From contig JAUNPJ010000024.1 in NCBI GenBank assembly GCA_030536755.1, positions 1 through 45,477 on the forward strand: 45,477 bases of DNA, written 5' to 3'. This DNA is from Eubacteriales bacterium (GTDB lineage: Bacteria; Bacillota; Clostridia; Lachnospirales; Lachnospiraceae). Under the pieces are notes generated by a model, which was not told the DNA's origin, searched no databases, and saw nothing but the letters and a program-made list of their open reading frames with translations. A program made the position numbers and the translations under genes. Positions 2,656-40,816 of the stretch are shown one piece after another (within the stretch, counting starts at the first letter, position 1; every line of letters begins with the position of its first letter).

Positions 2656-4737
2656 ATGGCAGCAAAACATGGCAGCTTATCTATTAACAGTGACAACATT
2701 CTTCCAATTATTAAAAAATGGCTGTATTCCGATCACGATATTTTTGCACGTGAGATGGTTTCCAACGGATGCGATGCGATCACAAAACTCAAAAAACTCG
2801 AGGTAATGGGTGAATATGATTTCCCGGATGGTTACAAACCGATGGTTCGCGTGATCGTCAATCCAGAAGAAAAAACTTTGAAATTCATCGATAACGGTAT
2901 CGGTATGACTGCAGATGAGGTTGAAGAGTATATCACACAGATTGCCTTTTCCGGTGCTACACAGTTCCTGGAGAAATACAAAGACAAAACAACGGATGAC
3001 CAGATGATCGGTCATTTTGGTCTTGGTTTCTACTCTGCATTTATGGTAGCAGATGAAGTTCATATTGATACACTTTCTTATCAGGCAGGCGCTGAGGCTG
3101 TTCACTGGGAATCTGACGGCGGTACGGAATACGAAATTTCTGACTGCGACAGAACAGAGGTTGGTACCGAGATTACCCTGTTCCTCAATGAGAACAGTCT
3201 GGAATTTGCCAACGAATATCGTATGAGAGAAGTTCTCGAAAAATACTGCTCTTTCATGCCGGTAGAGATTTTCCTGTCCAAAGCTAATGCGCCTCAGGAA
3301 TACGAGACCATCGATGAGGCTGACCTTCGCGAGGATGATGTCGTTGTTGAGCATATCCATGAGGATGCAAAGACCGAAGAACGCGAAAATGAAAATGGAG
3401 AGAAAGAGACTGTTGAAATCTCTCCTGCCAGAGAAAAAGTAAAAATCAACAAACGTCCCGTATCCTTAAGTGATACCCATCCGCTGTGGACCAAACATCC
3501 AAACGACTGCACAGACGAAGATTACAAAGAATTTTACCGTAAAGTATTTATGGATTACAAGGAGCCTCTGTTCTGGATCCATCTGAACATGGATTATCCG
3601 TTTAACCTGAAAGGTATCCTGTACTTCCCGAAAATCAACACAGAATACGATTCCATCGAGGGAACGATCAAACTGTACAACAACCAGGTATTCATCGCTG
3701 ACAACATCAAAGAAGTCATTCCTGAGTTCCTGCTCCTGCTCAAAGGTGTGATCGATTGTCCGGACCTTCCTCTGAACGTATCCAGAAGCGCTCTGCAGAA
3801 CGATGGTTTTGTAAAGAAAATTTCTGAGTACATCACAAAGAAAGTTGCTGACAAGCTGATCGGTATGTGCAAGACTCAGAGAGAATCCTATGAGTCCTAC
3901 TGGGATGACATCAGCCCATTCATCAAATTCGGCTGCATCAAGGATTCCAAGTTTGCAGAGAAAATGGATGATTATGTATTGTTCAAGAATCTGGACAACA
4001 AATACCTGACTCTGGAGGATTTCATCAAAGAAAACAAGCCGGAGGAAGCAGAGGAAGCGGCACCGGAAGTTGTGGACAGCGAGACGGAAGAACCGGTTAC
4101 AGAAGAGACCGACAAAGATGATTCCGAAGAAAAAGAGCCGAAGAAAACAACCTTATACTACGTTACGGATGAAGTACAGCAGAGCCAGTACATCAATATG
4201 TTCAAGGATGCCGGCAAAGATGCTGCGATCTTGCATCACAATATTGATACTTCTTACATCACGCATCTGGAAAGCAAAAATGACACTATCGCATTCAAAC
4301 GCATCGATGCCGATGTGGAAGAAAGTCTCAAGGATGAGGAAAGCATTGACGAAGAGACAACTAAGAAATTAACCGATCTGTTCCGCAAAGCACTCTCCAA
4401 CGACAATCTGGAAGTAAAAGTAGAAAATCTGAAGAACGAAAACATTTCTTCTATGATGACATTGTCAGAAGAAAATCGCCGTATGCAGGATATGATGAAG
4501 ATGTACGGTATGGCAGGTATGGATCCATCCATGTTTGGCGGCAGCCAGGCATTGATTCTGAACGGCAAAAATGCACTTGTTCAGTATCTGGCAGACCACC
4601 AGGACAGCGACCATGCAGATCTCATCTGCCAGCAGCTGTACGATCTGGCTATGATCAGTCATAAACAGCTTACTCCAGATGAAATGACAAAATTTATCGC
4701 AAGAAGCAATGAGATTATGATGCTGCTCACCAAATAA
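2656..4737 (+). CDS. htpG: Molecular chaperone HtpG (Hsp90)
   Basis: This is a 693-residue Hsp90 homologue, an ATP-driven cytoplasmic dimeric chaperone. N-terminal GHKL motifs are clear: REMVSNGCDA (E33, N37, D40), DNGIGM (D79-M84) and GHFGLGFYSAFM. The N-to-middle junction has the typical LWTKHP...DYKEFYRKVF. It is about 70 residues longer than E. coli HtpG (624). The extra length lies largely in two charged segments: one near residues 235-265, before the middle domain, and one very acidic stretch near 460-495. A GTG lies nine bases upstream in frame. I start at ATG 2656 because AAGGAG then has normal spacing. Control by CIRCE/HrcA is likely. Confidence 0.97.
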   Translation: MAAKHGSLSINSDNILPIIKKWLYSDHDIFAREMVSNGCDAITKLKKLEVMGEYDFPDGYKPMVRVIVNPEEKTLKFIDNGIGMTADEVEEYITQIAFSGATQFLEKYKDKTTDDQMIGHFGLGFYSAFMVADEVHIDTLSYQAGAEAVHWESDGGTEYEISDCDRTEVGTEITLFLNENSLEFANEYRMREVLEKYCSFMPVEIFLSKANAPQEYETIDEADLREDDVVVEHIHEDAKTEERENENGEKETVEISPAREKVKINKRPVSLSDTHPLWTKHPNDCTDEDYKEFYRKVFMDYKEPLFWIHLNMDYPFNLKGILYFPKINTEYDSIEGTIKLYNNQVFIADNIKEVIPEFLLLLKGVIDCPDLPLNVSRSALQNDGFVKKISEYITKKVADKLIGMCKTQRESYESYWDDISPFIKFGCIKDSKFAEKMDDYVLFKNLDNKYLTLEDFIKENKPEEAEEAAPEVVDSETEEPVTEETDKDDSEEKEPKKTTLYYVTDEVQQSQYINMFKDAGKDAAILHHNIDTSYITHLESKNDTIAFKRIDADVEESLKDEESIDEETTKKLTDLFRKALSNDNLEVKVENLKNENISSMMTLSEENRRMQDMMKMYGMAGMDPSMFGGSQALILNGKNALVQYLADHQDSDHADLICQQLYDLAMISHKQLTPDEMTKFIARSNEIMMLLTK

Positions 4738-4746
4738 AGCTGGTGG

Positions 4747-4800
4747 GACATGGGGACAGGTCTGTGTCCGGGTTTTCCGGACACAGACCTGTCCCCTGTC
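4747..4800. terminator. Long perfect hairpin between convergent genes
   Basis: A 20-bp perfect stem (4752-4771 with 4777-4796) has a 5-nt loop. It is extended by GACA/TGTC (4747-4750 with 4797-4800) across one unpaired base. It lies just after htpG and abuts the stop codon of the convergent FAD-protein gene, so it can terminate both. There is no long T-run directly after the stem on the plus strand. Confidence 0.7.
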
Positions 4801-6192
4801 TCACATTCTTTTTAAAATACTTTCCGCCACGCTGAGTCCGTTTTCACTGGCCTTCTGTAATCCTCTCTTCAGCGAGGAACCGTCAACGATGGCACGCAGT
4901 CCATGGATACTGGTCTCAAAATCTGTATCCACCACCACTTTGTTGGAATAGAATTTCACTTCTACTCCGTAAAGCAGTGTCTCATCACTGGCAATACCAG
5001 GTGTCACCTTATCCAGCGCCTCAATCATCTCTTCAATATCCACCATGATACGGTGAGGAAGAACAAGAGACAAATCCCCCGGCACTGCATCCTTCAGCGT
5101 CGGAATCAGATTATTTCTGCAAAGACGTTCCTCTGTGGTACGTCTTCCCCTCTTGAAATCTCCGAACGTCTGCACCAGTATCTTACCTCCACACAGCATA
5201 TTTCCCATCTGTGCGATCTGCTTGCCGTACTCAATCGGACTGTTAAACGGCTTGGTAAAGTTCTTTGACACCAGAAGCGCAAAGTTCGTATTGTTTGTCT
5301 TATACTCTTTGGATTTGTAAGCATGTCCGTTGACAACAGCCAGTCCGTTCTCATAATATTCCGTCGCCACTTCACCGGAAGGATTGGTACAGAAGGTACG
5401 CACTTTATCATCAAACGTCGGTGTGTAATACACCAGCTTAGCCTCATAAAGATTCTCATTCAGAAACTGCATCACTTCATCGCGCACTTCCACACGCACG
5501 CCGACATCTACCGTTCCAACCTCCGTCTCAATTCCATGATCCTGACAGATATGGCTGAGCCAATCAGCACCCTCGCGTCCCACCGAAGCCACAATTTCCC
5601 GTGCGTAATAAGTGGCTCCTTTATCTGTGACAACACCAACAGCCTGCCCGTTTTCAATAAGAATATCTGTCACCATAGTTTGAAACAGCATCTCTACGCC
5701 TTCTTTTTCCAGATGCTCCTGCAGCCGCTGGTAAATCTTATATCCTTCTTCTGTTCCCAGATGGCGGATTGGACATTCGATCAATTTGAGATTTGCCTGA
5801 ATCGCTCTGCGGCGGATCTCACGGATCTCCGCCTCTTTATCCACTCCATAGACGCTCGTATCCGCACCAAACTTCAGATAGATATCATCTGACTCCTTTA
5901 TCAGTTCCACAGCCCTGTCATACCCAAGAATCGCAGGAAGATTGCCTCCTACATCCGGAGACAGCGAAAGCTTGCCGTCGGAAAATGCACCTGCTCCCGC
6001 AAAGCCTGTCGTGATGGAACACGGCTGACAGCCAACACATTTTTTTGTTTTTCTCTTCGGACACTGACGTTTTTCAATCGAGCGGCCTTTTTCAATCATC
6101 AACACTTTCAGATCCGGTCTTTTTTCTTTCAGACGATAAGCACAGAAAATACCTGACGGACCTGCCCCAATAATAATTACATCATAGCTCAT
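4801..6192 (-). CDS. FAD-dependent oxidoreductase (COG2509-like)
   Basis: This 463-residue protein begins with a dinucleotide-binding fold: MSYDVIIIGAGPSG, then E34 at the end of strand 2, the FAD ribose ligand. A Cys-rich stretch, CPKRKTKKCVGCQPC (about residues 44-58), follows and then GFAGAGAFSDGKL. This is the pattern of the uncharacterised NAD(P)/FAD-dependent oxidoreductase family COG2509. The C-terminal GSSLKRGLQKASENG closes the FAD site. The substrate is unknown. The four clustered Cys could hold an iron-sulphur cluster or a zinc, which is inference. The gene lies 81 bases downstream of metY in the same direction with no clear terminator between, so co-transcription is possible. Confidence 0.85.
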   Translation of the reverse strand: MSYDVIIIGAGPSGIFCAYRLKEKRPDLKVLMIEKGRSIEKRQCPKRKTKKCVGCQPCSITTGFAGAGAFSDGKLSLSPDVGGNLPAILGYDRAVELIKESDDIYLKFGADTSVYGVDKEAEIREIRRRAIQANLKLIECPIRHLGTEEGYKIYQRLQEHLEKEGVEMLFQTMVTDILIENGQAVGVVTDKGATYYAREIVASVGREGADWLSHICQDHGIETEVGTVDVGVRVEVRDEVMQFLNENLYEAKLVYYTPTFDDKVRTFCTNPSGEVATEYYENGLAVVNGHAYKSKEYKTNNTNFALLVSKNFTKPFNSPIEYGKQIAQMGNMLCGGKILVQTFGDFKRGRRTTEERLCRNNLIPTLKDAVPGDLSLVLPHRIMVDIEEMIEALDKVTPGIASDETLLYGVEVKFYSNKVVVDTDFETSIHGLRAIVDGSSLKRGLQKASENGLSVAESILKRM

Positions 6193-32800: not shown

Positions 32801-33637
32801 TTATTTCTCTCCATTTCTGAACATCGTAATCATTTCACTGGTCAGACTGCCATTTGCCGCAGGTTCCGGAAGCTGATCCCGGTCAAACCACTGTGCCAGC
32901 GCCAGCTCCTCCTGATCAAGCGTGATATCCTCCTCTCCGTCCAGATCCACATAAAATCCAAATAGAAGGGTATCGGTAAAAGACCATGGCTGGCTTTTGT
33001 AATAACGAAGGTTCTTCACCTTCAAACCAACCTCTTCCATCACCTCACGCTTTACTGTCTCCTCAATCGTCTCGCCAATCTCTGCGAATCCCGCGATCAG
33101 CGCATAATTCGTATGACCTCTGCCCGCATACTTGGACAGCAAAAGACGATTTCCATGCGTCACTGCCACAATGACTGCCGGACAGAGTTTTGGATATTCC
33201 ATACGTCCGCATTTTGGACAGTATACCATTCTCTCTTTGTCACTGTGCATCATTGGTTCCTGACAGTGTCCGCAAAATAGATGATTCTGATACCAGCGGT
33301 AAAGCTGTGATCCTGTCACTCCGGCAAATGCCTGATATCCCGCTTGTACGGTTCTGAAAATTTCAATGTTTTCAAAGGCATAATTCTGTCCCTTGGGCCA
33401 TACCAGATGTTCCATCAGATAATAGCGTTTGTCATCAATACTGAATAAATACTGGCAATTTTCGTAAATTCCCTCGTTTTCCTGTTCCAGCTCCGCAAAA
33501 GTCGGATATGTAACCTTTTTGTCCACCCATTTGATTAATATCTGTTTTTCATGATAGCACAAGATATAACTTTCCGGAGACGGCGGCAGCGGATGATATT
33601 CATTGTGGTATACATGAGGCGCGATATCCTGAATCAT
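32801..33637 (-). CDS. nudC: NAD+ diphosphatase NudC
   Basis: This 278-residue Nudix hydrolase has the NudC layout: a zinc ribbon with four Cys (C122, C125, C140, C143), the Nudix box from GFAEIGET to REVMEEVG (183-204), and the subfamily motif SQPWSF (215-220). NudC cleaves NADH/NAD+ to NMN and AMP and removes NAD caps from RNA. It is the first gene of a two-gene unit with the deoxyinosine glycosylase. A GGGGA sequence precedes the ATG. Confidence 0.95.
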   Translation of the reverse strand: MIQDIAPHVYHNEYHPLPPSPESYILCYHEKQILIKWVDKKVTYPTFAELEQENEGIYENCQYLFSIDDKRYYLMEHLVWPKGQNYAFENIEIFRTVQAGYQAFAGVTGSQLYRWYQNHLFCGHCQEPMMHSDKERMVYCPKCGRMEYPKLCPAVIVAVTHGNRLLLSKYAGRGHTNYALIAGFAEIGETIEETVKREVMEEVGLKVKNLRYYKSQPWSFTDTLLFGFYVDLDGEEDITLDQEELALAQWFDRDQLPEPAANGSLTSEMITMFRNGEK

Positions 33638-34761: not shown

Positions 34762-35616
34762 ATGAAGACTACCATCATTCTCGGCGCCGGACCTTTCGGC
34801 CGCGCCTGTGCGAATTTACTGAATGACAAGCATCTGCATCTGCTGGCATTTGCCGACAACAATCCATCACTTCACGGCACATTCATTCGCCATATCCCTG
34901 TCATATCTGTGGAGCATGCCGTGCGCCAGACACCAGATATCTTTTTGATCGGCGTGATGGGGAGTGACCGCACACAAGAATTGAAAGAACAGGTGCACAC
35001 CCTTGGATTTCGTGGAACATTTATGACGGTCGAAGAATTGTACCAGACCTACGATATTCGAAGTGCCACCCTGTACCGCATCGCCGAGCGGCTTCACCGG
35101 CAGCAGGTAGACGGAGCTGTCGCCGAACTCGGTGTGTACAAAGGAGATACGGCCTGGAAACTGAATCTTCTATTCCCTGACCGCAAGCTTTATCTTTTCG
35201 ATACGTTCTCAGGATTTGACAAACGAGATGTAGAAAAAGAAAAAAACGAACAATTTTCCCGCGCAGAAGCCGGTGACTTTGCAGACACGAGTGAATTTGC
35301 AGTCCGCAAGCGCCTGCTCTTTCCCCACCAGGCCATCTTTCGAAAAGGCTTTTTCCCGGAGACAGCCGAAGGACTGGAAGAAGAGACCTATGCCCTCGTC
35401 AGTCTGGATGCCGATTTATACGCCCCGATTCTCGCCGGGCTGGAATACTTCTATCCAAGACTGAATCACGGCGGCATGATTCTGCTCCACGACTACAACA
35501 ACCAGCGCTTCTCCGGAGCAAAACACGCGGTCGAAGATTACGAAAAAAAATATGGTGTACTTGCACTTGTCCCACTGTGTGACCTGCATGGAACAGCCGT
35601 GATTGTACATCCATAA
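34762..35616 (+). CDS. TylF/MycF-like methyltransferase with Rossmann N-domain
   Basis: This 284-residue protein has an N-terminal nucleotide-binding-like domain (about 1-85, MKTTIILGAGPFGRACANLL) and a C-terminal class-I methyltransferase related to the macrocin O-methyltransferase TylF (about 100-284). The SAM loop is VAELGVYKGDTAWKL, and SLDADLYAP and LLHDYNN supply the metal/substrate region. TylF proteins methylate sugar hydroxyls. The N-domain resembles those that bind nucleotide-linked or acyl sugars. A role in cell-surface glycan decoration is possible but unsupported by neighbours. AAAGGA precedes the ATG. Confidence 0.8.
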   Translation: MKTTIILGAGPFGRACANLLNDKHLHLLAFADNNPSLHGTFIRHIPVISVEHAVRQTPDIFLIGVMGSDRTQELKEQVHTLGFRGTFMTVEELYQTYDIRSATLYRIAERLHRQQVDGAVAELGVYKGDTAWKLNLLFPDRKLYLFDTFSGFDKRDVEKEKNEQFSRAEAGDFADTSEFAVRKRLLFPHQAIFRKGFFPETAEGLEEETYALVSLDADLYAPILAGLEYFYPRLNHGGMILLHDYNNQRFSGAKHAVEDYEKKYGVLALVPLCDLHGTAVIVHP

Positions 35617-35724
35617 TTTTCAAGAAAATTTCCATTCGTATTGACCTCATTTCCAAATCGTGTTATCACAGATGCAAACATATGTTCCGAATATTTGTTT
35701 GTTTCTTTAATCGAGGTAGTCACT

Positions 35725-37140
35725 ATGGAAATCACAAAAGAATTGTCTCTTCAGGAAAAACTGCATATTCTGGCAGATGCGGCCAAATACGATGTTGCCT
35801 GTACCTCCAGCGGCGTGGATCGCAAAGGAAAGCAAGGCTTCCTTGGTAATTCGGCAGCCTGCGGTATCTGCCACAGCTTTGCATCGGACGGAAGATGTAT
35901 CTCTCTTCTGAAGATCCTTTTGACAAACCATTGCATCTACGACTGTAAATATTGCCAGAACCGTGTTTCCAATGATATTGTCCGTGCTGCGTTTACTCCG
36001 CAGGAGGTCTGCGAAATTACGATAGAATTTTATAAGCGAAACTATATCGAAGGTCTGTTTTTGAGTTCAGGCATCGATAAAAATCCCACGCATACCATGG
36101 AACAGATCTGTCAGGTTCTCTATCTTCTTCGCACAACGTATCATTTTAACGGATACATCCATGTGAAGGCAGTTCCGGGTGCACCGGATGAACTGCTGAC
36201 AACAGCAGGCTACCTGGCTGACCGTATGAGCATCAATCTGGAACTGCCCACAGAGGACGGCATGCGAAAACTCGCCCCGAACAAAACACACCAGGCTATT
36301 CTGCGGCCAATGGGACAGATGACAAAGACCATTGCTGCCCATCGCCTTGCCATCGGTAAAAATGCCCGCATGGAAAGAAGCCGCATCAATCAGTATCTGA
36401 CAAACAGTATTTTTTCAGATAAATTACTGGAATCCGACAGCAAAAGTCTGGAACTCCCTTCCTCCGTTAAAAACGAAGTACCAAACCGCCCCTTTGCGTC
36501 GGCAGGACAGAGTACCCAGATGATCATCGGTGCCACACAGGAGACAGATTACCATTTGCTTCGCACTACCCAGTATCTGTATCAGTCCTATGATCTCAAG
36601 AGAGTCTTTTTTTCTGCCTATGTGCCTTTGAATGAAGACCAGAATCTTCCCGCTCTCGATACACCTGTCCCGCTGCTTCGGGAACACCGCCTTTATCAGG
36701 CGGACTGGCTGCTTCGCTACTATGGCTTTCAGGCCGAAGAACTTCTCTCAGAGGAACGTCCCAATTTTAATGAGCTTCTCGATCCGAAATGCGAGTGGGC
36801 ACTGCGCCATCTCGATCATTTCCCCGTAGAGATCAATCATGCATCCTACGATATACTACTTCGCATTCCGGGTATCGGTCCCAAATCCGCAGCAAGAATC
36901 GTACAGGCATGTCGCTATGGAACTGTAGACTTTCCTCATCTGAAAAAAATGGGCGTCGTACTGAAACGGGCGCATTATTTTATTACCTGCAGTGGAAAAA
37001 TGATGTACAAAACACCCATCGAAGAAACGTACATTGCCAGACAGCTCATCGGAGCCGACAGAAAAGAAAACTGGGAAGCCACTCACAAAAACGATTACCA
37101 GCAGATGTCCCTGTTTTTTGATTTTGGTCTGCAATCATAA
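35725..37140 (+). CDS. Putative DNA repair/modification radical SAM protein
   Basis: This 471-residue protein of the TIGR03916 type has the radical-SAM CX3CX2C cluster (C70, C74, C77, CIYDCKYC), preceded by more Cys (C26, C46, C49, C58) that could bind a second metal site. A helix-hairpin-helix DNA-binding motif, LLRIPGIGPKSAARIVQACR (378-397), follows. The last residues, QQMSLF, resemble the QLSLF sliding-clamp-binding motif. No reaction is established for the family to my knowledge. Start 35725 follows GAGG. The frame is open 28 codons further upstream. It is followed after 17 bases by the DUF4130 gene, its usual partner. Confidence 0.85.
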   Translation: MEITKELSLQEKLHILADAAKYDVACTSSGVDRKGKQGFLGNSAACGICHSFASDGRCISLLKILLTNHCIYDCKYCQNRVSNDIVRAAFTPQEVCEITIEFYKRNYIEGLFLSSGIDKNPTHTMEQICQVLYLLRTTYHFNGYIHVKAVPGAPDELLTTAGYLADRMSINLELPTEDGMRKLAPNKTHQAILRPMGQMTKTIAAHRLAIGKNARMERSRINQYLTNSIFSDKLLESDSKSLELPSSVKNEVPNRPFASAGQSTQMIIGATQETDYHLLRTTQYLYQSYDLKRVFFSAYVPLNEDQNLPALDTPVPLLREHRLYQADWLLRYYGFQAEELLSEERPNFNELLDPKCEWALRHLDHFPVEINHASYDILLRIPGIGPKSAARIVQACRYGTVDFPHLKKMGVVLKRAHYFITCSGKMMYKTPIEETYIARQLIGADRKENWEATHKNDYQQMSLFFDFGLQS

Positions 37141-37157
37141 TTTCAGGAGGAATTGTT

Positions 37158-37916
37158 ATGTATATCTATACCTGTCAACAAACCTTTGAAGCCATGATGA
37201 CCTGCATCTATGACGCATGGGCAAGCCGGAAAGGACACAAGAATATACGTCTGGAGCTGGAGCCCATCGAACAGCCGGAGCTGTTCTGCGAATATGTTCA
37301 CATCGATGCTGACCCTGAAAAGGTCAAAAAAGTCGTGCGCTCTGTTCAAACGAAGATTTCCTGGAAAGCATTCGGCCAGATTTACCGTGCCGCCATGTCC
37401 TGTGAACCAGACCGCCTCGATGCCATCTATCGTTTTCTGATTCTCGGATTTACCTGCGGCGGTCAGGTCACAAGGATGCTGACCGAAACCTCCGTAATGC
37501 GGATTCTGGAACTTTCCAGAAAAGTCAGCAATGAAGCGCATTATTTTCGAGAGTTCGCACGCTTTTCCTCGGTGGACGGCAAAATTTACATCAGCCATAT
37601 CGAACCAAAATGCAACATTCTGGAGCTGACCGCCCGTCATTTTGCCGACCGAATGCCATCCGAATACTGGATCATGATCGACGACGCACGAAATCTCGCC
37701 GCTGTTCATCCCAAAGACGAAGGGCTCTACCTCACCACACTGTCCGCAAAGGAGATGAAGAAACTGCAGGAAGTCGAAAAACAGAAGGATCTCTATACCG
37801 AACTATGGAAAGAATTCTTCCAGTCCATCGGCATTGAGGCAAGAAAGAATCCAACCTGCCAGCGGAACATGATGCCTCTGTGGTACCGAAAACATATGAC
37901 CGAATTTCAACCGTAA
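37158..37916 (+). CDS. DUF4130 (TIGR03915) DNA-metabolism partner protein
   Basis: This 252-residue protein of the TIGR03915 family is annotated only as a probable DNA metabolism protein and is almost always encoded beside the radical-SAM protein. It begins MYIYTCQQTFEAMMTCIYDA. A mid-protein ISHIEPKCNILELTARHFADR block and the C-terminal NPTCQRNMMPLWYRKHMTEF look conserved. It is soluble with no signal peptide. AGGAGGA lies upstream. The pair may work together on damaged or modified DNA (family-level inference). The TAA stop is the first three bases of the target duplication of a MITE-like element. Confidence 0.85.
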   Translation: MYIYTCQQTFEAMMTCIYDAWASRKGHKNIRLELEPIEQPELFCEYVHIDADPEKVKKVVRSVQTKISWKAFGQIYRAAMSCEPDRLDAIYRFLILGFTCGGQVTRMLTETSVMRILELSRKVSNEAHYFREFARFSSVDGKIYISHIEPKCNILELTARHFADRMPSEYWIMIDDARNLAAVHPKDEGLYLTTLSAKEMKKLQEVEKQKDLYTELWKEFFQSIGIEARKNPTCQRNMMPLWYRKHMTEFQP

Positions 37917-37921: not shown

Positions 37922-38064
37922 GTTACTGTTCACACGGCACTATCCCGCGAGGTGTTTTGGCATGAATATGCCAAAATCCCGAGACATACAAGCCAAAATT
38001 CCATTGCCGAAGGCAATCTGGAATGAATTTTGGCTAAGTTACTGTGAACGGAGTGAACAGTAAC
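37922..38064. mobile_element. 143-bp MITE-like element, copy 2
   Basis: The sequence is identical over all 143 bases to the element at 28830-28972 and lies in the same orientation 9.1 kb away. It is flanked by its own different 8-bp direct repeat (TAAATAGT), which shows that it inserted independently. It lies between the end of the DUF4130 gene and the promoter of tRNA-Trp. Confidence 0.88.
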
Positions 38065-38545: not shown

Positions 38546-40816
38546 ATGTTCAAAAATTACATCCTGAACGAAATTACAAAAGAGAAAAATCACATTACAA
38601 ACCAACTGGATAATAACTATTGCAAAGCAAATGCTATTCGCAAAAGACGAAAAAAATCCCTTAAAATATATCATCAAACAGAAGAATACCAGGCATCTCT
38701 TGAAGAGGCACTGGCCAAATCAAAAAGGTATCAGAAACTCATTTCCGAACACGCTACAGAAGACGAAGATCTAAAAAAAGAATACGATGCCTTCGAACAA
38801 AGACAAAAAGAACAAAAAGAGCGGGAAAAGAAAAGACAGGAAGAAAAGCGTTTACAACAGCTACGTGTTCAAGAAAAACTGACCGAGATGGAACAATGCC
38901 TGAAAAAATTGGATTTTACACCATTGTTTAAAAAATACACCCAAAAAAGGATCCGTGAAATAGAACAATCTTACTCCCTGGACGTTATCTCTATTGAAAC
39001 TTATGATGATTACTTCCAAAGCGACTATATTTACAACAAGAAATATTCTGAATTATCCGCAGAAAATTTCGATGACTTCATAAATTCTCTCGAATATATA
39101 GAGTGGAGCAATATTTTTATTATCTATGAGGATATATTTGATGATATTTTTCATGCTTTTACTGAATTACAAAAATTCAAGGAAGATGATGATCTTTGCG
39201 ATTCGCTCACTGACTACTTAACAGATATCATTTCTGACTATGATTATGAAATTGAGTCAGAATTAAGCAGTCGCTTTACAAAATCTTACATCCTTGAACT
39301 GATCAGGAAAAATCCTCACTATTGCCTGATGATAAAAGATATGGAAGACAGAGAGCAAAAATTGAAACAGGAAAAACAAGAGTTAGAAGAACGCAGAGAA
39401 TTCTTACGAAAAACAATCCTACAAAAAATACCGGATAATTACATTGACTTTTTCCCGGAAGCCAGAAAAATAAAGCGGAATTTTATTTTACATATAGGTC
39501 CGACAAATTCAGGGAAAACATTTCATGCCACACAAGCTTTGAAGTCAGCCAAAAACGGTATTTATTTAGCTCCCTTAAGACTTCTCGCAATCGAGCAATA
39601 TGTTCAATTAAACAAGGAAGGATTTCCTTGTTCTCTTATAACCGGAGAAGAAGAAAAACATATTGAAAATTCTTTTTTCCAATCCTCAACCATTGAGATG
39701 GCAGATCTGACAAGACAATACGCCGTCGCCGTGATCGATGAGGCACAGATGATAAAAGATTCAGATCGAGGGGGAGCATGGACAGCCGCAATTTTAGGGA
39801 TTTGTACGAAAGAAATCCATATCTGTGCTGCGTTAGAAGCTGAAGAGATATTAATCAAATTAATACAAGACTGCAAAGATTCGTACAAAGTTCTGCACTA
39901 TGAAAGACAATGCCCACTTATATGCGAAAAGCAGCCTTTTTCGTTTCCAAGTTCTGTAAAAAAACACGATGCACTTATTGTGTTCTCGAAAAAAAGTGTC
40001 CATGCAATAGCCGGGGAACTCCAAAGAACAGGAACAAAGTGCAGTATGATTTACGGATCGCTGCCCTATGAGGTGAGAAAAAACGAAGCAGATAAGTTTA
40101 TTGCTGGTGAAACAGATGTACTTGTAGCTACAGATGCAATTGGCATGGGATTAAATCTTCCGATCGAACGCATTGTATTTCTTGAAACAACAAAATTCGA
40201 TGGAAAAACAAAAAGACGGATAAATCCAGAAGAAATACGACAAATAGCGGGAAGAGCTGGGAGAAAAGGTATTTATGATGTGGGATATTATAATGCAGAT
40301 ACATCCATAGACTTCATTCAAAAAAGCATCCTTGTTCAGACAGATCCCATTAAAAAAGCCGTACTTGCCTTTCCAACACATTTGCTGTATCTAAATGCGC
40401 CATTATCTGAAATTTTTGAAAGATGGAATGAATTGCATATAAATGATGCATTTGTAAAACAAAATCTGGAACGTGAATTACATTTATGTAAATTCATGGA
40501 AAACTATAGCAAAGACAAACAGATTATATATAAATTTTCCACAATTCCATTCAACGAAAATTCAGAACAATTAATGGAATTATGGACCGAAATGTTTTTT
40601 GCTGAAATACAAGGTAATGTGTATCCATTTCTGTTATCCGATAAGCACATAACTTCTGACATACATTCCCTTGAAGAAATCTACCGGATCTGCGATTTGT
40701 TTTATTGCTATTACCGGAGATTTAATCACACGCAATTTCTGGAAGACACAGAAACTGTACGAAAACAAATAACAAAAAGGCTGATAGAACTTTTGTCTCA
40801 TCAAAAAAGGCAATAA
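38546..40816 (+). CDS. SUV3-like RNA/DNA helicase
   Basis: This 756-residue superfamily-2 helicase is most like the SUV3 family of mitochondria and alphaproteobacteria. Motif I is GPTNSGKT (318-325), motif Ia region YLAPLRLLAIEQY, motif II DEAQ (398-401), then VLVATDAIGMGLNLPI and motif VI QIAGRAGR (566-573). The first 300 residues are a lineage-specific, highly charged region with predicted coiled coils (about 60-125 and 275-300). The SUV3 C-terminal domain seems reduced. SUV3 unwinds RNA for exonucleolytic decay. The bacterial role is unknown. Base use is AT-rich (many AAA, ATA, AGA) compared with the left half of the window, suggesting transfer. AAAGGAAG precedes the ATG. Confidence 0.85.
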   Translation: MFKNYILNEITKEKNHITNQLDNNYCKANAIRKRRKKSLKIYHQTEEYQASLEEALAKSKRYQKLISEHATEDEDLKKEYDAFEQRQKEQKEREKKRQEEKRLQQLRVQEKLTEMEQCLKKLDFTPLFKKYTQKRIREIEQSYSLDVISIETYDDYFQSDYIYNKKYSELSAENFDDFINSLEYIEWSNIFIIYEDIFDDIFHAFTELQKFKEDDDLCDSLTDYLTDIISDYDYEIESELSSRFTKSYILELIRKNPHYCLMIKDMEDREQKLKQEKQELEERREFLRKTILQKIPDNYIDFFPEARKIKRNFILHIGPTNSGKTFHATQALKSAKNGIYLAPLRLLAIEQYVQLNKEGFPCSLITGEEEKHIENSFFQSSTIEMADLTRQYAVAVIDEAQMIKDSDRGGAWTAAILGICTKEIHICAALEAEEILIKLIQDCKDSYKVLHYERQCPLICEKQPFSFPSSVKKHDALIVFSKKSVHAIAGELQRTGTKCSMIYGSLPYEVRKNEADKFIAGETDVLVATDAIGMGLNLPIERIVFLETTKFDGKTKRRINPEEIRQIAGRAGRKGIYDVGYYNADTSIDFIQKSILVQTDPIKKAVLAFPTHLLYLNAPLSEIFERWNELHINDAFVKQNLERELHLCKFMENYSKDKQIIYKFSTIPFNENSEQLMELWTEMFFAEIQGNVYPFLLSDKHITSDIHSLEEIYRICDLFYCYYRRFNHTQFLEDTETVRKQITKRLIELLSHQKRQ

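Follow-up and report, generated by a model that had tools for sequence, protein, structure and literature searches.

Introduction

Radical S-adenosylmethionine (SAM) chemistry on DNA is well known for one enzyme, spore photoproduct lyase (SPL, SplB). Like SplB, one protein encoded in the DNA analyzed here is a radical-SAM protein with links to DNA repair. The stretch in question (the window) comprises 45,477 nucleotides from a Eubacteriales bacterium of the Lachnospiraceae (contig JAUNPJ010000024.1 of assembly GCA_030536755.1, positions 1 to 45,477 of the forward strand), and it contains a pair of adjacent genes for a radical-SAM protein of family TIGR03916, which we take to be COG4277, and a partner of family TIGR03915 with a DUF4130 domain. 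The two families are named by NCBI as a putative DNA modification/repair protein and a putative DNA repair protein, respectively, and no demonstrated reaction of the pair was found among the literature matches listed. We propose, with a probability of roughly 0.7, that the pair is a DNA-damage-induced, two-component radical-SAM enzyme that is tethered to the replication clamp and acts on damaged DNA.

Several described systems resemble parts of this locus. The splB gene is predicted in PMC3323433 to be LexA-controlled in alpha- and betaproteobacteria. For an operon of COG1573 and COG4277, PMC8565304 predicts LexA-type control in Bacteroidetes and cites earlier reports that such a uracil-DNA glycosylase (UDG) system is SOS-controlled in Verrucomicrobia and Alphaproteobacteria; if the COG4277 identity that we assume holds, this published control parallels the operators of the window pair. 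The Streptomyces LexA regulon given in PMC9380542 includes an unnamed radical-SAM protein. UdgX, which in many proteobacteria is fused to DUF4130 beside the radical-SAM gene, excises uracil and remains covalently on the abasic site, and PMC10359453 describes resolution of this adduct by RecA-dependent pathways or proteases as a proposal only; the DUF4130 protein of the window is unfused. Both families of the pair have already been named, and for some groups published work had placed the UDG-linked version under SOS control. What is new relative to the literature found is a clamp-binding-type tail on the radical-SAM protein, its replacement in archaea by a peptide like the PCNA-interacting protein (PIP) box, and a rule that ties a further cysteine triad (C26/C49/C58) to DUF4130; neither these features nor the triad itself are described there.

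Results

Homologues of the radical-SAM protein were taken from the window's phylum (299 genomes searched, 65 above the family cut-off and 66 regions read), from the 80 best of 591 loci in named genomes across many phyla, from nine loci in plasmid and phage records and from archaea. The archaeal set was built from a Micrarchaeota hit (L086): homologues occur in 19 genomes among 87 of its phylum and in 40 among 241 of a wider group of relatives (the 19 included), which together gave 39 usable sequences, and rows called archaeal are those from genomes taken as archaeal. Twenty duplicates, one record with an open end (L112), two fragments (L183 and L184) and the window itself (L001/L002) were excluded before tails were counted, and the remaining tails were brought into register at the final residue of the core (F419 in the window protein). 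The clamp pattern counted was Q-[LM]-x-[LIMFVW]-[FLIW] or its six-residue form, with QL[SD]LF as the strict version.

The tail of the window protein reads Q459-Q460-M-S-L-F464. A reading made earlier from the sequence alone had matched this peptide to the sliding-clamp motif QL[SD]LF and had named loss of the tail in relatives, or its burial in the fold, as outcomes that would speak against clamp recruitment. The match to the strict motif holds only when methionine is allowed at position 2, where it occurs in 17 of the 152 bacterial rows, but conservation of the tail was borne out. A clamp-type motif is present in 131 of the 152 bacterial homologues, compared with 5.8 expected in shuffled tails, and the strict form is present in 29, compared with 0.04; the column of Q460 is glutamine in 147. 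The same patterns were found in the last 45 residues of 11 of 854 other bacterial open reading frames (ORFs) on the same loci (strict form 0/854) and of none of 146 bacterial DUF4130 partners, a set from which duplicates and archaeal loci had been removed. By one count the homologues span 14 named bacterial phyla and the motif 11 of them. In several Alphaproteobacteria the motif forms the final residues of the protein (PPPEQLSLF), and in bacterial rows with the motif the linker that precedes it varies in composition and in length (15-42 residues, median 30).

An AlphaFold2 model of the radical-SAM protein, built on a 79-sequence alignment, has a mean predicted local distance difference test (pLDDT) score of 87.6 and a predicted template modeling score of 0.86, and up to residue ~440 it lies mostly above 90 except for an insert near residues 220-250. 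Since pLDDT falls below 50 at residues 456-471, the tail motif is predicted to be disordered, with no packed structure, and would not be buried. The conserved QLxLF-type peptide therefore lies in a predicted flexible stretch, as is characteristic of beta-clamp-binding proteins. A second conserved peptide, [TSMA]G[EQDP][LIFM] (TGEL, TGEI or SGQL), stands at the very C-terminus of 32 of the 152 bacterial homologues, in 28 of them after the clamp motif (for example L006, L013, L045, L080 and L121); the window protein lacks it.

Archaea use PCNA as their clamp, and PCNA partners use a peptide of another kind, the PIP box (approximately QxxhxxFF). What, then, do the archaeal homologues carry? PCNA_N was found in 39 of the 40 genomes taken as archaeal and the bacterial clamp DnaN in none of these 40, while eight of eight bacterial genomes have DnaN. 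The clamp motif is absent from all 39 archaeal homologues, and in 37 of them the C-terminal region instead holds Qxx[LIMV]xx[FYW] (for example QARISAFL, QTTLQKFF, QSNLDNFQ, QSTLAEWG and QANLIQFA), compared with 0.8 in shuffles; one exception ends in DATLMRWLT and the other, a distant sequence, has nothing similar. In bacterial tails the PIP-like pattern occurs in 11 of 152, close to the shuffle value of 7.3. The excluded fragment L183 also ends in a PIP-like peptide, QAKISSFF. Moreover, the ending [LIMV]xx[FYW] is shared by nine of 12 archaeal DUF4130 partners, as opposed to 17 of 170 other archaeal ORFs and 14 of 146 bacterial DUF4130 partners.

One alternative is that the C-terminal motif arose by chance or is a structural element unrelated to the clamp. 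In its favor, 21 of the 152 bacterial rows have no clamp pattern, among them two Chlorobiota, one Chloroflexota and one Fibrobacterota; eight of the 21 are one step off (QPSLF, QISLF, QASLF, QATLF, EPMSLF). This alternative is nevertheless very improbable given the enrichment over shuffles, over other ORFs and over the operon partner, the predicted disorder of the tail and the PIP-like box found where the clamp is PCNA. As judged from these patterns, a clamp tether of the radical-SAM protein is very highly probable.

Expression of the pair appears to be tied to DNA damage. Two abutting LexA-box-like sites (Table 1) lie 24 to 50 bases 5' of the radical-SAM start codon, each matching eight of the ten specified positions. 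The best window site has a shuffle p of 0.05, which is modest alone, and LexA-box-like matches are not in excess across the window (11 against 13.6 expected), so that the weight comes from relatives. Of the 65 Bacillota rows, among them the window, 45 have upstream sites matching at least eight of ten positions, compared with one of 65 in an equal in-gene stretch. A perfect GAAC-N7-GAAC, in either orientation, precedes the gene in 11 of 11 Alphaproteobacteria (control 0/11), a perfect CTGT-N8-ACAG in three of three Betaproteobacteria (control 0/3) and CTGT-N8-ACAG with at most one mismatch in eight of eight Gammaproteobacteria (control 0/8); these we take to be the consensus boxes of each class's own LexA. 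With a promoter box conserved in relatives, the window pair is likely to belong to the SOS regulon, and because of the LexA boxes action on DNA damage gains support. In a Margulisiibacteriota locus (L068), a LexA-like gene (4403-4993) immediately precedes the radical-SAM gene and the DUF4130 gene. A candidate promoter 5' of the window's LexA site, TTGACC-17-TATCAC, failed a promoter scan and was dropped.

The sequence-only reading had noticed an extra cysteine cluster at C46, C49 and C58. C49 and C58 are indeed conserved (148 and 149 of 152 bacterial rows), but the C46 column is cysteine in just 12, and C26 (150 of 152) belongs to the set instead. Among the 39 archaeal sequences C26 is found in 36, C49 in 13 and C58 in 12. 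We know of no clamp tail in TYW1, LipA, MiaB/RimO or MoaA, enzymes that differ from the present protein in acting on tRNA, a ribosomal protein, lipoyl carrier proteins or GTP. In these same enzymes, as described in PMC5352715, three cysteines outside CX3CX2C bind an additional [4Fe-4S] cluster in which one site is potentially free, and the N-terminal three-cysteine arrangement is likewise found in TYW1 (CX12CX12C), LipA (CX4CX5C) and the methylthiotransferases, compared with CX22CX8C in the window protein; in LipA a C-terminal serine secures the auxiliary cluster (PMC5352715), which lends some interest to the second C-terminal peptide of the bacterial homologues. C26/C49/C58 are likewise three further conserved cysteines, and by analogy with TYW1, LipA, MiaB, RimO and MoaA we infer that they coordinate another [4Fe-4S] cluster, one position of which is open.

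The triad and DUF4130 occur together. Over 188 homologues both are present in 157, neither in 31 and the two are discordant in none. All 12 archaeal genomes with the full triad have DUF4130 (in one, G541, the match is at 24.4 bits, below the cut-off), and a whole-genome search of the other 28 archaeal genomes found none. No DUF4130 was found in the genomes of the triad-less bacterial rows L067, L093 and L114, or for L155, of which only the plasmid was searched. Presence of DUF4130 was taken from whole-genome search for L014, L024, L053, L069, L083, L087, L092 and L125, and three rows stand outside the table: L161, a truncated frame whose genome has DUF4130, and L036 and L127, which are taken up in the Discussion. 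The excluded row L112, read by eye, has tyrosine at the C49 position and comes from a genome without DUF4130. The triad and DUF4130 change at six to seven places on the trees. The second bacterial clade, whose divergent partners escape single-sequence phmmer so that it seemed mostly free of DUF4130, was shown by whole-genome search with PF13566 to have DUF4130 in 13 of 14 members. A solo form, in which no DUF4130 was found in the genome and C26/C49/C58 are incomplete, is seen in archaea (L169-L182, L189-L196, L201-L205) and bacteria (L067, L093, L114), and all archaeal solo forms except L204 retain a PIP-like tail; retention of C26 in the solo form suggests a further role for this residue. In the Chloroflexi row L114 a gene for an IrrE-like metallopeptidase (PF06114; 4375-4950) lies upstream of the solo-form radical-SAM gene.

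These operators and cysteines bear on whether the enzyme might instead install a base modification behind the fork. The NCBI family name leaves modification open, post-replicative marking would suit clamp recruitment, and TYW1 and MiaB, which have three-cysteine auxiliary clusters, modify RNA bases (PMC5352715). LexA-type operators, however, fit a damage response and not constitutive marking, and we regard this role as improbable.

In many proteobacteria the partner gene encodes DUF4130 fused to UdgX, with TIGR03915 and TIGR03914 in one ORF in three of three such ORFs scanned, and the partners at L152-L154 are annotated as UdgX; a Pseudomonas partner (L128) has TIGR03915 alone. Within the wider set, the 79 partner reading frames include 20 with the motif GEQPG and 13 with KRR[LI]H. 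Could the radical act on a protein at the fork rather than on a base, by releasing or trimming UdgX or another protein stuck at an abasic site, or by modifying the clamp or polymerase? These fusions, together with a covalent UdgX adduct whose resolution is a proposal in PMC10359453, point in that direction. We consider a protein target unlikely, since GEQPG is absent from all 63 DUF4130 reading frames from the window's phylum and from the archaeal partners (unfused UdgX elsewhere in those genomes was not sought), and the pair is equally conserved there.

The membership of both proteins is clear. The radical-SAM protein scores above the TIGR03916 cut-off of 343.5 bits (Table 1) and covers the profile over its full length (1-415 of 415), and it belongs to the radical-SAM superfamily by PF04055 (31.2 bits, cut-off 29.5) and by its CX3CX2C motif, in which C70, C74 and C77, read correctly at the outset, are invariant in 191 of 191 aligned rows. 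The helix-hairpin-helix (HhH) reported at residues 378-397 corresponds to a PF12836 match below the Pfam cut-off of 27 bits; matches to ComEA and RuvA support the region, and G383 and G385, the glycines of its G-x-G core, are again invariant in 191 of 191 rows. Searches against PDB sequences matched mainly HhH and radical-SAM core fragments for this protein and returned no credible match for the DUF4130 partner, which lies above the cut-offs of TIGR03915 (112.25 bits) and DUF4130 (27 bits). The radical-SAM stop codon ends 17 bases before the partner's ATG, in agreement with the gap noted earlier. PADLOC models of anti-phage defence matched neither protein. In L092 and L125 the radical-SAM frame runs to 717 residues from stop to stop, which would reflect either a much extended N-terminus or an upstream frame that does not belong to the protein.

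Direct reversal of a pyrimidine photoproduct in the manner of SPL was also considered. No SPL family is among the NCBIfam hits of the window protein at an E-value of 0.001, where only TIGR03916 and a weak ThiH match appear; we know of no SPL counterpart of the C26/C49/C58 triad or of DUF4130, and the relatives come from the gut and from deep or reduced-genome archaea. An SPL-like reaction is quite unlikely on these grounds, even though radical-SAM is here combined with probable DNA binding and PMC3765255 links DUF4130 with SplB-like radical-SAM photolyases.

Beyond DUF4130, no strong recurring operon partner was seen among the 25 commonest of 152 neighbor families (96 of 111 neighbors scanned), the top families being helix-turn-helix proteins in just three members. 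A deoxyinosine glycosylase and a NudC-type enzyme near the pair had been noted as context, and both are present (Table 1); they are encoded on the opposite strand, separated from the pair by two genes, no such family is among these 25, and this neighborhood was rejected as support.

Other features of the window and the collection are recorded here. A 756-residue helicase of Suv3 type (38546-40816; PF22527 DEXQc_Suv3, 202 bits) is encoded in this bacterium, and the frame at 34762-35616 is composite, with a weak, sub-cut-off NeuD/Rex-like N-terminus and a TylF-type O-methyltransferase domain. Just 3' of the DUF4130 gene lies a perfect 12-nt inverted repeat, GTTACTGTTCAC (37922-37933) and GTGAACAGTAAC (38053-38064), with 119 nt between its arms. 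Ten phage-collection records contain homologues (MT835514, MT835935, six others named 'Bacteriophage sp.', CAKLQH020000003 and CAKLQF020000004); in the Acinetobacter record CAKLQH020000003, glyS/glyQ and other chromosome-like genes adjoin the homologue, so that this record may be host DNA.

Table 1 Features of the radical-SAM/DUF4130 locus and its surroundings, in window coordinates.
Feature	Position	Strand	Details
Deoxyinosine glycosylase, TIGR04274	32304-32798	opposite to pair	
NudC-type NAD diphosphatase	32801-33637	opposite to pair	
LexA/SOS-box-like operator CAAACATATGTTCC	35675-35688	+	8/10 specified positions of CGAAC-N4-GTTCG
Second, abutting LexA-box-like site CGAATATTTGTTTG	35688-35701	+	8/10
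Radical-SAM protein, TIGR03916	35725-37140	+	471 aa; NCBIfam 684.6 bits
Auxiliary cysteines C26 (35800-35802), C49 (35869-35871), C58 (35896-35898)	35800-35898	+	proposed three-Cys iron-sulfur (Fe-S) site
Radical-SAM CX3CX2C, C70/C74/C77	35932-35955	+	invariant
Helix-hairpin-helix, residues 368-395	36826-36909	+	PF12836 25.2 bits, PF00633 20.9 bits, both below cut-off
Linker from HhH domain to tail motif, residues 420-459	36982-37101	+	model: helices 434-453, disorder from 456
Beta-clamp-binding-type motif, Q460-M-S-L-F464	37102-37116	+	conserved pattern; predicted disordered
TIGR03915/DUF4130 partner	37158-37916	+	252 aa; NCBIfam 282.6 bits, DUF4130 178.6 bits

Discussion

How might the two proteins work together? 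In the model that we favor, release of LexA would switch the operon on, as the operators suggest, and the radical-SAM subunit may grip DNA through its HhH domain while its flexible C-terminal peptide, as the tail patterns strongly indicate, would dock on the sliding clamp, either the beta clamp or, in archaea, PCNA. The C70/C74/C77 cluster would cleave SAM to the 5'-deoxyadenosyl radical, a step established for the superfamily, and this radical could then attack the lesion nucleotide. DUF4130, with UdgX where the two are fused, would find or hold the lesion, and the putative C26/C49/C58 cluster may serve to bind another ligand or to pass on an electron in a step that requires DUF4130. The clamp-recruited radical enzyme put forward by the sequence-only reading is well supported by the conserved tail, predicted to be disordered, and by its PIP-like switch, and action on DNA lesions is probable; the direct lesion reversal that it also mentioned is a guess, one option among several, and any single named reaction is unlikely. 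Because fused UdgX excises uracil and stays on the abasic site, the likeliest substrate class in the proteobacteria with the fusion would be a uracil- or abasic-type lesion, or the protein-DNA adduct itself.

Several observations weigh against this interpretation. The clamp and PIP patterns were composed with the first tails already in view, and the shuffle, ORF and partner controls use identical patterns. Some of the 21 bacterial rows without the clamp pattern (L087, L093, L107, L114) hold nothing similar, the loose motif occurs somewhere inside 17 of 146 bacterial DUF4130 reading frames, and a second aromatic residue, as in the classical PIP box, is found in only three of 39 archaeal tails. 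Furthermore, since archaea and bacteria separate by one change on the trees, the tail switch is a single event, retained through both radiations while the flanking linker changed. With regard to the operators, the excess in named Clostridia is modest (13 of 19 against eight of 19 with at most two mismatches, five of 19 against none with at most one), a perfect box of the alpha type in one clostridial row (L119) is presumably a chance match, and the published Bacteroidetes LexA motif CTAA-N5-TTAG is perfect in one of 14 rows. As for the cysteine rule, the triad is present in L036 and L127, in whose draft genomes DUF4130 was not found, and the changes on well supported branches amount to two to three independent pairs, too few for significance.

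Taken together, we tentatively suggest an ancient, clamp-riding form of radical repair of DNA lesions that dates back to the divergence of its archaeal and bacterial sequences, with a docking peptide rewritten for each clamp and a second Fe-S site present only with DUF4130; its two-cluster reaction may lie outside known repair pathways, and the solo forms would be one-cluster enzymes. The family is far wider than SPL, reaching many bacterial phyla and archaea, with sequence evidence for clamp recruitment and LexA-type operators in several lineages. Because the tail switches from a clamp motif to a PIP-like box, short peptides would allow a direct test of clamp binding, and the tie between C26/C49/C58 and DUF4130 offers a handle on the role of DUF4130 and predicts a second Fe-S cluster that would be detectable by spectroscopy.

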